Assembly: GCF_003671715.1 (NCBI RefSeq)
Contig: NZ_RAIF01000032.1
Coordinates: 2,024,889-2,088,888 of the forward strand
Length of the DNA stretch: 64,000 bases
Source: Streptomyces sp. E2N166
GTDB taxonomy: Bacteria; Actinomycetota; Actinomycetes; Streptomycetales; Streptomycetaceae
Direction: 5' to 3'
Notes under the pieces: generated by a model
Database searches by the model: none
What the model saw: the letters and a program-made list of their open reading frames with translations, nothing else
Told to the model about the DNA's origin: nothing
In this document: positions 9,256 to 16,665 of the stretch, piece by piece
Layout: each line of letters opens with the position of its first letter
How positions within the stretch are numbered: the stretch's first letter is position 1
Program-made: the position numbers and the translations under genes

Positions 9256-10164
9256 CTAGTCCCAGTACGTCTCGTGGGTCAGCCGGTCGCCCTGTCCGTC
9301 GAAGGTGTCGACGGACGCGATGGTCTCTCCGTCGGCGATGGGCAGGGCGAACGCACGGTAGGAAGTGCCGGGCAGTGTCACCACCCGCGCCGTGCGGACC
9401 GATCCGTTGTCCAGGGTGAGCCGGGCTGTGGCCGTCCCCGAGGCAGGGTTGCCGACGAAGATCCGGGTCCCGGACGCCCCCTTGTCGGACAGACTGCGCA
9501 GCCCGGCCCCCTGGACGAAGTCGTCATCGCCGTCCACGACGGAGCAGCCCGCCCAGTGGCCCGCCTGATGGTCGACCTGGACGCCGCCGATGAAGACCCG
9601 TTGGCAGAGCAGCGAGAGTTCCTCCGGCCGGGGACCACGGCCGGAGCCGGAGCCCCCGTCGGCGTCGCGGTCGCCCTCTGCGCCGACGTTGGTGTCCGAG
9701 GAGGGAAAGTCGTCCGGCACCTCCGGATAGAACGTCAGCGTCACCGACCACTTCTTGCCGTCGATGCTGCCGGAGCGGATCACCCGGCTGCGTTCCGCGG
9801 CCTTCGACGCGTCGGGACCCGGTGAGACGGAAGGGGAGGAGGCCGCTGGAGTGGGGCTGCCATCCTGCGACGGGCCGGCCAGCAGCGGCAGGACGACGGC
9901 TGTGGTGACCGCGGCCATCAGCGCCCCGGCCGCCGCGCTCACGGTGGTGCGGCGGGACCTCCGGGCACGGGCACCGTCCAGGATGGCCTGCACAGGTGCC
10001 GGCCCGGGCGCCTTCCGCCCGGCCGCCCTGGCCAGCGCATGCCGCACGTCCGGTGCGCGATCCGCGGCATGGAGGGTACCGAGCCGGTCCGGGACGGAAT
10101 CGCCGGAGGCGCCCGAAGCCCTTGAGGCAGCCGATCGCCTGTCGGGTGTGTGGGGGGCGGTCAT
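9256..10164 (-). CDS. Membrane-anchored sigma-factor partner with extracytoplasmic domain
   Basis: A 302-residue protein translationally coupled to the sigma gene (ATGA overlap). Residues 1-72 are cytoplasmic, with helical RHALARAAGRK and a basic stop-transfer GARARRSRR; one transmembrane helix lies at about 75-96 (VSAAAGALMAAVTTAVVLPL); a Pro/Ser linker follows; residues ~130-302 form the outer domain (IDGKKWSVTLTFYPEVP ... SGTRIFVGNPASGTATARL ... DGETIASVDTFDGQ) with two cysteines 20 residues apart (187 and 207). The position and topology suggest an anti-sigma or sensor role, but there is no zinc-type anti-sigma motif. Its outer domain is shared with the secreted protein at 10787. Confidence 0.7.
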   Translation of the reverse strand: MTAPHTPDRRSAASRASGASGDSVPDRLGTLHAADRAPDVRHALARAAGRKAPGPAPVQAILDGARARRSRRTTVSAAAGALMAAVTTAVVLPLLAGPSQDGSPTPAASSPSVSPGPDASKAAERSRVIRSGSIDGKKWSVTLTFYPEVPDDFPSSDTNVGAEGDRDADGGSGSGRGPRPEELSLLCQRVFIGGVQVDHQAGHWAGCSVVDGDDDFVQGAGLRSLSDKGASGTRIFVGNPASGTATARLTLDNGSVRTARVVTLPGTSYRAFALPIADGETIASVDTFDGQGDRLTHETYWD

Positions 10165-10694
10165 GCGGCGCCTCCGAGATCCGCGCGGTCGTGCGCCGCC
10201 AGGGCGGGGTGTGCCCGCAGCTTGGCCAGAGCACGGGAAGCCTGGCTCTTGACCGTGCCGGGCGAGCAGCCCAGCGTCCGTGCCACCTCATCCGCCCCGA
10301 GATCCTCCCAGTAGCGGAGGACGACCACGGCTCGTTGCCGTTCGGGCAGTTCGGCCAGAGCCTCCATCAGCACGTCGCGATCCTCCAGGCGTTCGGCATC
10401 GCGGGACCGCTGCGGACGGTCCGGAAGCAGAGGGGTGAGCAGCTGGGCGACCCGTCTGCGGCGGTGGCGGCTTCGGTTGTTGTTCACCAGCGCGCGCCGC
10501 ACATAGGCGTCGGCGTCCTCCCGCCGCACCCGGTCCCACCGCGCGTACACCTTGATCAACGTCGTTTGCACCAGGTCTTCCGCTTCATGGAAATCACCGG
10601 TCAGCATGTAGGCGGTCCTGACCAGGCGGCTCCAGTAGGCCGAGGCGAAGGCCGTGAAATCGTCTTCGGCCTCGACGGCCGGTCCGATGCGCAC
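10161..10694 (-). CDS. SigE-family ECF RNA polymerase sigma factor
   Basis: Sigma region 2 is seen as DDFTAFASAYWSRLVRTAYM, then EAEDLVQTTLIKVYARW; region 4 as EALAELPERQRAVVVLRYWE, then ADEVARTLGCSPGTVKSQAS and RALAKLRAH, the helix-turn-helix that contacts the -35 element. The short length and lack of sigma region 1 or 3 fit the SigE-family of ECF factors frequent in Streptomyces. The GTG at 10694 is preferred because homology begins just after it and AGGGA lies upstream; the frame is open to 10763. It is the middle gene of a three-gene operon with a secreted protein upstream and a membrane protein downstream. Confidence 0.85.
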   Translation of the reverse strand: MRIGPAVEAEDDFTAFASAYWSRLVRTAYMLTGDFHEAEDLVQTTLIKVYARWDRVRREDADAYVRRALVNNNRSRHRRRRVAQLLTPLLPDRPQRSRDAERLEDRDVLMEALAELPERQRAVVVLRYWEDLGADEVARTLGCSPGTVKSQASRALAKLRAHPALAAHDRADLGGAA

Positions 10695-10786
10695 GAAGAG
10701 TCTGTCCCTGCGGGTGTGTGGGCGGGCAGGCGGTACGGTCCGGTCCCCGGATGCCGGCGGCACCCGGGGACCGAAGACCGGTGGGG

Positions 10787-11476
10787 TCAGTCCCAGTACG
10801 TCTCGTGGGTCAGCCGGTCGCCCTGTCCGTCGAAGGTGTCGACGGACGCGATGGTCTCCCCTTCGGTGATGGGCAGGGCGAACGCACGGTACGAGGTCCC
10901 CGGCAACGTGACCACCTCAGCGGTACGGACCGTCCCGCCGTCGAGAGTCAACCGGGCCGTGGCCGTACCCGAAGCCGGGTTGCCGACGAAGATCCGGGTC
11001 CCGGAGGTGCCCTTGCCGGTCAGGCCGTGCAGCCCGGCACCTTCGACGAAGTCGTCCCGGCCGTCCACGACGGCGCATCCCGCCCACGGGCCGGCCTGGT
11101 GGTCGACCTGGACCCCGCCGATGAACACCCGCTGACAGAGCAATGAGGGATTGTCGGGCTGCGAGTCACCGAAGCCGGAGGTCCGGTCGACGGTGGGGAA
11201 GTTCTCCGGAACCGTCGGATAGAACTGCAGCGTCACCGACCACTCCTTGCCGTCGATGATGCCGGAGCCGACGGCACGGGTCACGGTCCGCCGTTCCTCG
11301 CCCTGCGCGTGCCGAGTAGGGTGCTGCTTCGCCTGCGTGGCCGACCGCGCGTGCATTCCCTTGCCGGAGGCGTCACCAGACACCTCGGGGGCAGCCCATG
11401 CACCGGCTGCCGGTGTACCGACCACGATGGCGGCCGCGCCGGCGGCGACCGCGAGCTTCTTGAAGCTGCTGTACAC
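10787..11476 (-). CDS. Secreted paralogue of the membrane-anchored sigma partner
   Basis: A 229-residue exported protein starting at GTG with TAGGAG upstream. The N-terminus is a Sec signal (KKLAVAAGAAAIVVGTPAAG, cleavage after AWA). After a polar linker comes a domain nearly identical in plan to the outer domain of the 9256-10164 protein: IIDGKEWSVTLQFYPTVP, LLCQRVFIGGVQVDHQAG, SGTRIFVGNPASGTATARL and SYRAFALPITEGETIASVDT, with two cysteines 20 residues apart (about 114 and 134). It is the first gene of the operon with the sigma factor. The domain has no recognised name; a decoy, ligand or co-sensor role is inference. Confidence 0.7.
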   Translation of the reverse strand: MYSSFKKLAVAAGAAAIVVGTPAAGAWAAPEVSGDASGKGMHARSATQAKQHPTRHAQGEERRTVTRAVGSGIIDGKEWSVTLQFYPTVPENFPTVDRTSGFGDSQPDNPSLLCQRVFIGGVQVDHQAGPWAGCAVVDGRDDFVEGAGLHGLTGKGTSGTRIFVGNPASGTATARLTLDGGTVRTAEVVTLPGTSYRAFALPITEGETIASVDTFDGQGDRLTHETYWD

Positions 11477-12043
11477 GTTGCTCCTACGGGAAGTGGGGTG
11501 ATTGGACCGGAGGGCGCCTCTCCACCCACTCCTACTCCCGTTCTCCGCCGGAGGTTGCATACGCCGGTGATTTCCTGGCGGCCGCACTGAGGCCGGCAAC
11601 CGCGGGCTCAAGCATGGCGGTTGGGCCGAGTGCCGGGTCGGGGGCCGAGTCCTCGGCCACGCGCGCCGCCGCCTCCCGCTCTACCGACCTCCTCGTGGAC
11701 CTGTCGCGTTGGGTGGCAGGCCGGGCCTTCCCGTCTTGCCTGCACGACCGACTGCGTTGGCACGGGATGCGACCTGCGCACGGCATCGGCAGCCTGCGAG
11801 ATCCCGGTGTTGAGGCTGCGTGATGCTGTGGCCTGCGGTGGTCGGGTCCATGGTCGGGCGACGGAAGCCATGGCCGGGGTCGCGGCTTCGTGGGATACGC
11901 CGTTGCCTCGGCATCGACACCTCGGTGTTCACAGCGGCCTGAACGCCTGCGTGCGCCGGCCGCGGAGTCCCGCGGGGATCGCGCCCTGCCGCAGCCCGTT
12001 CGGCGCCGTCAGGCGGATGCCGCGGCCGGCGCCTGGGACCTCT
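11477..12043. other. No supported gene
   Basis: All frames are open by composition, but none shows a recognisable domain or a start with a good ribosome site. It contains the upstream region of the secreted protein gene (to about 11560) and the end of the winged-helix gene at 12044; the rest looks like decayed or non-coding DNA. Confidence 0.4.
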
Positions 12044-12930: not shown

Positions 12931-13495
12931 ATCATGGTGACTGGTACGTCGCCACGAACTCACCGACCAGGAGTGGGAGTTACTCGCTCCGCTGACACCC
13001 CGGACCGAGACGGGGCGGCCCCGCGTGAAGGACCGGCAGGTCATCAACGGGATGGTCTGCAAGATCCGCACCGGGATCTCCTGGCGTGGCCTGCCGGGAC
13101 GCTACGGGTCCCTGCCGGGACGCTACGGGTCATGGGAGACCGCGCACGCCCGCTTTGGCGCTACGCCCTCGACGGGGCGTTCACTCAAGCCCTGCAGCAC
13201 ATCCGGACCCGTGCCGACGCGGCCGGCGACATCGACTGGCCGGCCCAGATCGACTCCACCATCGTCCGCGCCCACCAGCACGCCGCCGCACCGGCCGAGC
13301 TAGGGGCGGCACCAGCAGGACGAACCGGACGATCACGCCCTCGGACGGCCCCGAGGCGGACTGGCCACCACAATCCACCTCGTCTGTGACGGCAAGGGCC
13401 GGCCGCTCGCGATCCTGGTGATGCCCAGCCAACGCCACGACAGTGTCTGCGCACGCCCTCTGTTGGAACGTGTCCGCGTCCCCCGCACCGGCCGA
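12931..13495 (+). pseudogene. IS5-family transposase remnant with a 21-bp tandem duplication
   Basis: Pieces in different frames give ELTDQEWELLAPLTPRTETG, RVKDRQVINGMVCKIRTGIS, RYALDGAFTQALQHIR, DIDWPAQIDSTIVRAHQHAA and LVCDGKGRPLAILVMPSQRH, consecutive parts of an IS5-type transposase. The catalytic D (IDSTIV) is present, but the frame changes several times and the C-terminal third is absent. A perfect 21-bp duplication (13090-13110 and 13111-13131) repeats seven codons (LPGRYGS). The remnant runs directly into the truncated DJ-1 gene. Confidence 0.75.
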
Positions 13496-14234: not shown

Positions 14235-14714
14235 ATGTCCCTGATCAGAGAACCGCACCGCCGCCGCTTCAACGCAGTCATGGTGGGCGGAGCCGGCGCT
14301 GCCTATCTGAGTGGGGGCGGATTCGGCCTGTGGGAGCTCCCGTTCGTCGCGCTCATGGCCTACGTCGCCTACCGCGGCCTGGAGTCCTGGACCTTCATCG
14401 GCATCGGCTGGCTGCTCCACACCGCATGGGACATGGCCCACCACCTCAAGGGCAATCCGATCCTGTCGTTCTACCACGACTCATCCCTGGCATGCGCCAT
14501 CTGCGATCCGGTCATCGCCCTGTGGTGCTTCGGCGGAGGACCTTCCCTGATCGTGCTCGTCCGCCGCCGTCAGCGGGGTGGTCTTGCGAGGCGGTGCACC
14601 AGGCCCGACGGTCGGTACCAGGGCCCCACCGCAGGGGGCTCGATCGCCTCGGCGAGAAGGACCTCGTTGCGGGTCGAGCAGCCGTCGGACGGATCGTCAC
14701 CGCTGTTCCAGTGA
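14235..14714 (+). CDS. DUF6010-family membrane protein, both ends altered
   Basis: SLIREPHRRRFNAVMVGGAG, AAYLSGGGFGLWELPFVALM, RGLESWTFIGIGWLLHTAWD and FYHDSSLACAICDPVIALWC match DUF6010 membrane proteins. The usual first helix is missing (the frame before the ATG is unrelated), and after GGPSLIVLVRRR the frame runs into sequence belonging to the opposite-strand DUF1524 fragment. The gene is therefore probably truncated at both ends. Function of the family is unknown. Confidence 0.55.
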   Translation: MSLIREPHRRRFNAVMVGGAGAAYLSGGGFGLWELPFVALMAYVAYRGLESWTFIGIGWLLHTAWDMAHHLKGNPILSFYHDSSLACAICDPVIALWCFGGGPSLIVLVRRRQRGGLARRCTRPDGRYQGPTAGGSIASARRTSLRVEQPSDGSSPLFQ

Positions 14715-14881
14715 CGGAAGGCGTCACAGTCGTACCCGTCGCGGGACTCGACGTCGACCGGCAGGCGGGTGATGGCTTCCTCGACAGGGAGATCCTCAGC
14801 CGCGTGGGCAGGCGTGGACGCGAGGACGGGCAGAACGGCGAGGGACGCGGCGGCCAGGTCGCGCGGCGCAGAGGTGAGCAT
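14570..14881 (-). pseudogene. Secreted HNH nuclease-like (DUF1524) protein, N-terminal fragment
   Basis: An exported N-terminus (LAAASLAVLPVLASTPAHAA) is followed by EAITRLPVDVESRDGYDCDA and DGCSTRNEVLLAEAIEPPAV, the start of secreted Streptomyces DUF1524/GmrSD-C-like HNH nucleases. The HNH core itself is absent: after PPAVGP the sequence is the end of the DUF6010 frame. Two genes on opposite strands thus lost their 3' ends at one junction. Confidence 0.6.
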
Positions 14882-15165
14882 GAGCCGTTGATAGCGGCGT
14901 GGGGAGGGGTGCTATCAACACGTCGCCAAGTGCGCCGCCCGTGTGAGTGCAATGGTCCTGCCGGTCCGGCCTCGACGCGGACGCGGCTGCACCATGGACC
15001 TGAGCCTGGGCAGCGTGGCTTCGTAACCGAGAGCTGACACCGTTTGTCGTCGAGTTCGAGCAGCACTTGTTGATCACAGGCCGGAAAATGTCAGCGAGAA
15101 CTGACACCGCTGTCACAGGGATAGGGCTTGTTGCCACGCTGGACGGCCCTCGCGGAAGGGGCCCG

Positions 15166-15702
15166 TCACATCGGGAGGGAAAACAAACGCACCGGCCCTG
15201 AAGGCCAGCATGCGTTGTCGCGCAGGGGCGTCACCATGGTCCGCAGTGGCATGGCCACCAGGCGGTTTTCGGGTTGTTCGACAAGCACCTCCTTGTCGAG
15301 GGGGTGCCATCCGAGGCGCTGGTACAGCGGCACGAGGGGAGGTCGGCAGAACAGGAGCGCGTGCTGAGGACCCATCGTGCGAGCGTGGTCAAGTGCCGCT
15401 GTGACCACACGCCGGGCCAACCCCTGGCCCTGCATGTCGGGTGCGACGGCCACTCCACCGACGCCTACCACCTCTGTCTGGACATCGCCGATCGCAACAG
15501 GCAGCCGGAGGAGGCCGGCGTGTGCCACAAGCCGGTCGCCGTGTCTGATACCGAAGTGCTCTTTTTTGGGCAGCCAGGTCAAACCGGCCGCGGCAACACC
15601 GAAGGGATCATCGCAGTCACCGAGGATCTCGTCCTGGTCCGTCTTCGTGTATTGAAGAAGCCGCACTACAGCCGGTGTTACAGAGGATTGGTTGTCAGAC
15701 AT
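15166..15702 (-). CDS. GNAT-family N-acetyltransferase
   Basis: A 178-residue GNAT fold: FGIRHGDRLVAHAGLLRLPV, then VVGVGGVAVAPDMQGQGLAR with the acetyl-CoA pyrophosphate loop QGQGLA, RVVTAALDHARTMGPQHALL and PLVPLYQRLGWHPL, the last conserved helix-loop. Acetyl-CoA binding is well supported; the acceptor is unknown. The gene is isolated between the DUF1524 fragment and the IstB relic. Confidence 0.82.
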   Translation of the reverse strand: MSDNQSSVTPAVVRLLQYTKTDQDEILGDCDDPFGVAAAGLTWLPKKEHFGIRHGDRLVAHAGLLRLPVAIGDVQTEVVGVGGVAVAPDMQGQGLARRVVTAALDHARTMGPQHALLFCRPPLVPLYQRLGWHPLDKEVLVEQPENRLVAMPLRTMVTPLRDNACWPSGPVRLFSLPM

Positions 15703-15779
15703 TCCCACATGATGATCTCTCTTTCGAGGTTGGGCCAGGTGATCGATCAGCCGATCACCGGAGAGGGACTGGTGTGAGG

Positions 15780-16303
15780 TCAGCTGCCGGAGTTTTGTGC
15801 TGCGGCGCGGGCTTGGGTGATGGCGAGGCGGTAGGAATCGGTGCTGGTCCGGATCAGGTTGCCGCCGAAGGTGAGCCGGTCGACGATGGCCGCGCAGAGC
15901 CGGGGGTCGGTGAAGGTCTTGGTCCAGCCGCTGAAACTCTCGTTCGATGCGATGGCGACGCTGTTCTTCTCCTCGCGTTCGGTCAGAACCTGAAACAGCA
16001 GCTCAGCGCCCCTGCGGTCCAGCTCCATATAGCCCAGCTCATTGATGCACAAAAGATCGACTCTGCCGTAGCGGGCGATGGTCTTGGTCAGCGCCTTCTC
16101 GTCCGCGGCCTCGACCAGCTCGTTGACGAGCTTGGTGGCGAGTGTGTAGCGGACCCGGTAGCCGGCCATCGCGGCCTCGGTGCCCAGAGCGATCAGCAGG
16201 TGCGTTCGTAGTTGAACTGGCTGATCCGCTCCGCTAGATCGTTCCGGACGGAGCAGTCATCCTCGACCATGGTGTAACTGGGCGTCGCGTCCTCGGTGGC
16301 CAT
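15780..16303 (-). pseudogene. IS21-type IstB ATPase remnant with Walker A deleted
   Basis: HLLIALGTEAAMAGYRVRYT, VDLLCINELGYMELDRRGAE, VAIASNESFSGWTKTFTDPR and AAIVDRLTFGGNLI match the C-terminal two thirds of IstB helper ATPases. The GPxGTGKSH Walker A that should precede HLLIALG is missing and the frame breaks near 16200; the N-terminal piece from the ATG at 16303 (good AAGGAGG site) has no clear IstB character. In Walker B, Asp is replaced by Asn (INELGY). No istA is adjacent. Confidence 0.75.
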
Positions 16304-16665
16304 GGGTGCCTCCTTGTCGGGGGAAAGCCTTCTCCTCTCGGTCCCGGCACGGACCCGATCCGACAACGCACACCTCGAATCATCCTGCGATCCGCATCAC
16401 AGCTCGTGGAGCCGGCCAGTCGGCCAGCCGGTGTGATCGCGAGGTTCGTGGTTGGGACGGGTGGGGGGGTGAGCTGTGATGTTCGGAGTTTTCTGAGAAC
16501 GAAGTGGACGCTTCCGGAGTGTTTCGGTGGTGGTGACGATGCTTCTGAAGCGCTGTGATCGCCACGCGGCGATCATCAAGCCGTGCGCGCGTCAGGGGCC
16601 GCTGAGAGGGCCGGATGTGCCCCAACACCTGGTTCTCGGTAATGAAGTACGGAAACCAGGCGTTA
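16304..16665. other. No supported gene; flank of the IS5 copy
   Basis: Low-complexity, Ser/His/Thr-rich frames with no domain. The stretch directly flanks the left end of the complete IS5-type element and is probably non-coding or transposon-derived. Confidence 0.35.

Follow-up and report, generated by a model that had tools for sequence, protein, structure and literature searches.

The window (the whole stretch of 64,000 nucleotides that was analysed) carries a three-gene operon on its minus strand. SEC (10787-11476) codes for a secreted protein, SIG (10161-10694) for a sigma factor and MEM (9256-10164) for a membrane-anchored protein. Gene starts and signal peptides were assigned by inspection and conservation. 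The features of the locus are as follows.

11533-11558, minus strand: promoter-like element GCAACCTCCGGCGGAGAACGGGAGTA upstream of SEC, near-invariant in nearly all homologous loci.
10787-11476, minus strand: SEC, secreted protein of 229 amino acids with a GTG start, arranged as signal peptide, linker and outer domain.
11393-11476, minus strand: signal peptide of SEC (approximate), by inspection (KK, hydrophobic stretch, AWA/A).
10790-11278, minus strand: outer domain, secreted copy; an orphan without a sequence match in Pfam or PDB.
10790-10858, minus strand: last 69 nt of SEC before the stop codon, equal to those of MEM by nucleotide comparison.
10161-10694, minus strand: SIG, SigE-family ECF sigma factor (TIGR02983) with a conserved GTG start.
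9256-10164, minus strand: MEM, a protein with one transmembrane helix, whose ATG start overlaps the stop codon of SIG.
9949-10164, minus strand: cytoplasmic segment of MEM with the motif ALARAAGR..PGPAPVQAIL.GARARRSRR, conserved in 21 homologues.
9874-9948, minus strand: transmembrane helix of MEM (approximate), by inspection (hydrophobic stretch after an RARRSRR cluster).
9259-9786, minus strand: outer domain, membrane-anchored copy, with 73% identity to SEC over 177 amino acids.
9259-9327, minus strand: last 69 nt of MEM before the stop codon, equal to those of SEC by nucleotide comparison.

The GTG start of SEC at 11476 is preceded by a good ribosome-binding site. Its signal peptide is of the Sec type and ends in AWA, and neither a lipobox nor a wall-anchor motif was seen upon inspection. 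SIG scores 194 bits (E 1.5e-57) against TIGR02983, which is above the curated cut-off of 141.55. It consists of regions 2 and 4 only, the layout of ECF sigma factors (Pfam Sigma70_r2 and Sigma70_r4_2, both above cut-off). The start of SIG was set to the GTG at 10694 due to conservation across homologues; a GTG further upstream (10763) is less likely. The RefSeq start of the homologue from a linear plasmid (NZ_CP109267.1) agrees with this choice. In MEM, residues 1-72 become basic towards the transmembrane helix (RRSRR precedes it), and a Pro/Ser linker leads to the outer domain. The order of cytoplasmic segment, single transmembrane helix and outer domain was also seen by sequence inspection of 21 homologues. 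A short ORF upstream of the operon (12934-13389 of the window) looks, from its translation, like a transposase fragment.

The original prediction placed the sigma factor between a secreted and a membrane protein that share an outer domain. These coordinates were confirmed, and the two outer domains are identical at 129 of 177 positions (73%, E 3e-89). The two cysteines, 20 residues apart in SEC as well as in MEM, were also reproduced. Both are conserved in nearly all homologues, with a spacing that varies (16 in some clades). SEC and MEM carry the only copies of the domain in their own genome. Profile searches against Pfam, NCBIfam and PDB returned nothing credible for the domain, so that an origin from a known family was rejected at this level. 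An AlphaFold model computed from six sequences is unusable (mean pLDDT 39). Neighbouring genes give no functional hint, as flanking genes are common to close clades only.

The outer domain was detected in 33 of 395 genomes from the family, and nearly all of these have two copies at a distance of 1.3-1.5 kb (the nearest relatives, at E<=1e-3, are almost always paired at about this distance). The order SEC-SIG-MEM, with all genes on one strand, is found in 25 sampled Streptomycetaceae genomes from six genera. It is also found in contigs from Streptomyces sp. CB02414 (L003) and S. mutabilis (L004), and on the linear plasmid NZ_CP109267.1, where RefSeq annotates a hypothetical protein, a SigE family sigma factor and another hypothetical protein. 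Together, these are 28 loci. The concern raised with the original prediction, that the three-gene order might be conserved in no other genome, is thus dispelled. Because order and strand are the same in 28 loci, and because the relatives are almost always paired, the arrangement is not due to chance. The plasmid (713 kb) carries the domain pair twice, in inverted orientation near both ends (14554-16413 and 696375-698234); as the distances to the ends are similar, the two pairs are probably located within terminal inverted repeats.

A few genomes deviate. Two contain SEC only (G046 and G034); in G046, SEC has no nearby sigma gene and its promoter-like element is altered. At another locus (L055), SEC has an intact element, but there is no sigma gene within about 7.8 kb. 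G286 has a broken copy, and G002 retains SIG and MEM without SEC nearby. In G416, the order is SEC-MEM-SIG, the two domains are 100% identical, and a decayed extra copy is present upstream; this remnant (L155, G416:C35, 236-1312) consists of a partial outer domain and an interrupted sigma gene, preceding the intact, reordered set. Solo SEC genes might have arisen by loop-out between the repeats. This was rejected, since the remaining copy at L052 groups with SEC and is not a chimaera. In the more distant relatives G133, G397 and G400, and likewise in G009 and G048, SIG is accompanied by a MEM whose outer domain is remote, and a copy of SEC was not detected. Because these have the SIG-MEM pair without SEC, their distribution suggests that the pair is older and that SEC was added later, with the direction being our reading of the data.

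MEM had been proposed to be an anti-sigma-like sensor. A phylum-wide link to sigma genes makes this assignment likelier, but the cytoplasmic part is short (about 40-75 amino acids) and does not match any curated anti-sigma model from Pfam or NCBIfam above cut-off. A model named "antisigma" (NCBIfam NF052375) matches weakly in 8 of the 21 MEM homologues (best E 0.0025). In a Pfam scan up to E 1, MEM lacks the RsgI N-terminal domain. It does not belong to the CU044_5270 family (NF038083; 11.9 bits versus a cut-off of 100), to which 11 of the 21 homologues show weak N-terminal similarity. The genomic context is more informative. A MEM profile matches 48 of 396 genomes across the Actinomycetota, mostly via the N-terminal cytoplasmic and transmembrane part. 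A sigma gene is located directly upstream of the N-terminal match in 25 of the 28 loci examined, and in most of these the MEM-type start codon is within a few bases of the sigma gene. The outer domains of these relatives are generally unrelated to that of MEM. The host genome itself codes for a second SigE-family sigma factor (C40) with a partner of the same N-terminal type, which makes this a paralogous pair. Within the SEC-SIG-MEM loci, the start codon of MEM overlaps the sigma stop codon in most cases, so that the genes are coupled and their adjacency is conserved. The frequent position of the N-terminal family right behind a sigma gene strongly suggests, from context, that MEM and the sigma factor work together through the short cytoplasmic segment, and we predict that MEM is the anti-sigma factor of SIG. 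The phylum-wide relatives (L166-L193) represent an uncatalogued family of membrane proteins in which a short basic segment on the cytoplasmic side is combined with outer domains of various kinds.

If MEM were not an anti-sigma factor, SIG would be controlled in another way, and the free SEC and the anchored MEM would both be outputs of the system. The short cytoplasmic tail, devoid of a recognised sigma-binding domain, would be in line with this. However, members of the N-terminal family are accompanied by sigma genes throughout the phylum while being attached to unrelated outer domains. Also, start codons that mostly coincide with the sigma stop or lie close to it are hard to explain unless the N-terminal part works with the sigma factor. 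We consider this interpretation scarcely credible.

In almost all loci, GCAACC-N14/15-GGAGTA is found upstream of SEC as a promoter-like element. It is often extended to CGTGCAACCC and GGGAGTA(CCTACGG). In the genome from which the window is taken, the exact element occurs once, at the operon. When one mismatch is allowed, there is one match with the N14 spacer (versus two in the control) and there are three with the N15 spacer (versus three in the control), the control being the backward pattern in the same genome. Among 30 genomes that carry the domain, there are 68 exact matches, 27 at the operon and 41 elsewhere (1.4 per genome). Ten genomes without the domain have 10 exact matches (1.0 per genome). 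The non-operon matches that were inspected are mostly inside coding sequences, and none of the others was common to several genomes as a promoter, so that a wider regulon was rejected at the level of consensus matching, which is blind to degenerate targets. Thus, no recurrent candidate target other than the operon itself emerged, and among the products of the operon, only SEC is non-regulatory. Because no other site in its own genome exceeds the backward-pattern control, SEC is the sole candidate output. Operons of ECF sigma factors are usually autoregulated, and by analogy we infer that SIG reads this element.

Some individual sites may deserve attention. The element precedes a gene for a secreted peptidase-like protein in G008 (L101, position 2523) and one for a lipoprotein-like protein in G088 (L097, position 2401), which are possible lineage-specific targets. 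In the host genome, an element with one mismatch (G000:C32:8540-8567) is close to an ECF sigma gene (C32:8821-9315), which may be due to chance. Downstream of the element, the 5' UTR of SEC has predicted hairpins at L047-L049, L055 and L057 (z about -2.7 to -3.7). A conserved 5' UTR hairpin or riboswitch was rejected, however, as the signal is strong in some clades but absent in others, and as there is no match in Rfam.

These data bear on whether SEC is merely a brake. SEC would then act like CseA, modulating the sensor from the outside without any effector role, and the targets of SIG would be elsewhere, behind degenerate promoters. There is a precedent in the sigE-cseA-cseB-cseC operon of Streptomyces coelicolor, where an ECF sigma factor is also encoded together with an extracytoplasmic protein; CseA is a lipoprotein that tunes signalling, and its loss raises sigE promoter activity (PMC6767563). 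The elements ahead of the apparent lipoprotein gene in G088 and the peptidase-like gene in G008 would also fit. However, no second target in the host genome rises above the control, and none was seen to recur between genomes. In 25 of 27 genomes, conservation is higher for SEC than for the outer domain of MEM. Finally, SEC does not resemble a CseA-type modulator: its signal peptide ends in AWA/A, it has no lipobox, and neither a kinase nor a response regulator was seen in the operon. The Cse system differs further, having a sensor histidine kinase and no anti-sigma factor, and the sigE promoter is not a target of sigma-E (PMC6767563). SEC being only a brake is therefore rather unlikely.

The two copies of the outer domain have not evolved independently. 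In a tree of the domain, SEC and MEM copies do not form separate groups, and the two copies from the same genome are sisters in 10 of 27 genomes. A topology with SEC and MEM each as one clade is rejected (p-AU 1.7e-56), and a tree of 29 pairs requires the carrier to have changed at least 21 times. At the nucleotide level, the copies are identical over almost the whole domain at L062 but only over the last 165 nt at L060. The identical runs extend over 498 nt on the plasmid and 522 nt in G416. Such runs end at the stop codon or within a few bases of it. In the window, the similarity between SEC and MEM ends at the stop codons, which differ (TGA and TAG); the last 69 nt are identical, yet the identity at four-fold sites over the whole domain is only 0.66. 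At L042, identity at four-fold sites is higher within the locus (0.97) than between its orthologues (0.78-0.79). The carriers nevertheless stay distinct, one having a signal peptide and the other a PSPAPV-type tail. The domain is thus exchanged between two fixed carriers, with gene conversion as the simplest cause. Re-duplication instead of conversion is possible in single cases. It is also possible that homogenisation is neutral and follows from having direct repeats close together. One genus (L047-L049) has retained both copies despite a divergence that leaves about 30% identity, so matched specificity is not required everywhere. The best orthologue of SEC is closer than that of MEM in 25 of 27 genomes (a simple tally), which fits SEC being the constrained output.

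The neutral option can be taken further, with SEC as a by-product: a tandem duplicate of little function, kept and homogenised by direct-repeat recombination. Direct repeats separated by about 1.3 kb lend themselves to gene conversion, and solo or broken copies do occur (L043, L052 and L055). However, the signal peptide and the conserved promoter-like element have been kept over deep divergence, and orthologues are often more identical in amino acids than at four-fold sites. At L047-L049, where the divergence between the copies is too great for conversion, SEC is intact as well. We consider it very improbable that SEC is such a by-product.

We propose that the operon codes for an autoregulated sense-and-secrete loop in which the sensor and the secreted product share a recognition domain. 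MEM would expose its orphan outer domain to the outside of the cell and would keep SIG inactive at the membrane via its short cytoplasmic segment. When the outer domain meets an extracellular partner, SIG would be released, probably by proteolysis, as is the case in other membrane anti-sigma systems. SIG would then transcribe its own operon from GCAACC...GGAGTA; the element and its near-uniqueness are evident from the genomes, while its dependence on SIG is predicted. SEC, being the sensor domain in soluble form, would bind the partner of the sensor itself. Its build-up would sequester the partner and thus quiet MEM. A need for matched specificity of the two copies would explain their repeated homogenisation. 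This loop fits best because the operon promoter is the sole candidate target, SEC is the only output, SEC is the more conserved copy and the copies are kept matched. The cytoplasmic part of only about 40 amino acids in one clade argues against it, as this is shorter than expected for sigma binding, and so does the lack of a nearby sigma gene at L055. The altered element of G046, where SEC also has no nearby sigma gene, is in favour. We put the probability of the sense-and-secrete loop at about 0.45. It is tempting to speculate further that the operon is a decoy-receptor circuit, in which the sole effect of the sigma factor is to release a soluble sensor ectodomain, with gene conversion locking the specificities of receptor and decoy as the domain evolves; this is a tentative extension, which may well be wrong.

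The main rival is like-with-like signalling by SEC. As the signal itself, SEC would bind the outer domain of MEM on the same or on neighbouring hyphae, and would switch SIG on or off in autocrine or density sensing. Near-identical domains, one soluble and one tethered, are encoded in one operon; homogenisation would keep their faces matched, and homotypic pairing needs no third molecule. On the other hand, the AlphaFold model gives no structural support, the divergence to about 30% identity in one genus is difficult to reconcile with such pairing, and G002 keeps SIG and MEM without SEC nearby. We thus consider SEC unlikely to be the signal, but this is the alternative to be taken most seriously.

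The sense-and-secrete loop has relatives among known systems. It had been stated that no described system shows this arrangement, but RsgI6 and Xyn10D from Clostridium thermocellum are a partial precedent: the GH10 module of RsgI6 is 57% identical to Xyn10D, the promoter of which is recognised by sigma-I6 (PMC4711584). An anti-sigma factor with an outer domain paralogous to a secreted regulon product is thus already known. The MEM outer module likewise is the paralogue of a secreted protein, SEC, which is a candidate member of the regulon by its promoter-like element. SigI/RsgI systems also have an autoregulated sigma/anti-sigma operon, with a recognition domain common to sensor and product. 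However, the sigma and anti-sigma families are different (MEM has no RsgI domain match), and the secreted partners there are enzymes with several domains, whose genes lie elsewhere. In the present operon, the first gene codes for an orphan domain on its own, and the copies are homogenised.

Two further systems share single features. BldN/RsbN from Streptomyces (ASD III) combines an ECF sigma factor with a membrane-anchored partner that belongs to neither class I nor class II of the anti-sigma factors; the summary in PMC8103513 does not mention a soluble form of the RsbN outer domain. In SigV/RsiV from Bacillus and relatives, RsiV recognises a defined extracellular protein through its outer domain, which acts as a receptor and triggers the release of sigma; the abstracts describe no soluble counterpart of this domain (PMC4183432, PMC5014341). 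The open-access literature searched yielded no description of a bare domain encoded within the operon itself, of an operon that is its own sole candidate target or of recurrent homogenisation, such an absence being weak evidence.

If our proposal is true, the operon would be a minimal three-gene device that uses one domain for sensing and response, analogous to the soluble decoy receptors of animals, and could serve as a ready-made module in the design of self-limiting secretion circuits. With gene conversion as the simplest cause of the exchange, the operon would be a clear case of its recurrent action on a pair of receptor and soluble copy. Beyond the operon, the analysis gives evidence of a phylum-wide protein family, unnamed in the libraries searched, whose members are membrane proteins encoded next to sigma genes and have a short cytoplasmic segment in common but interchangeable outer domains.
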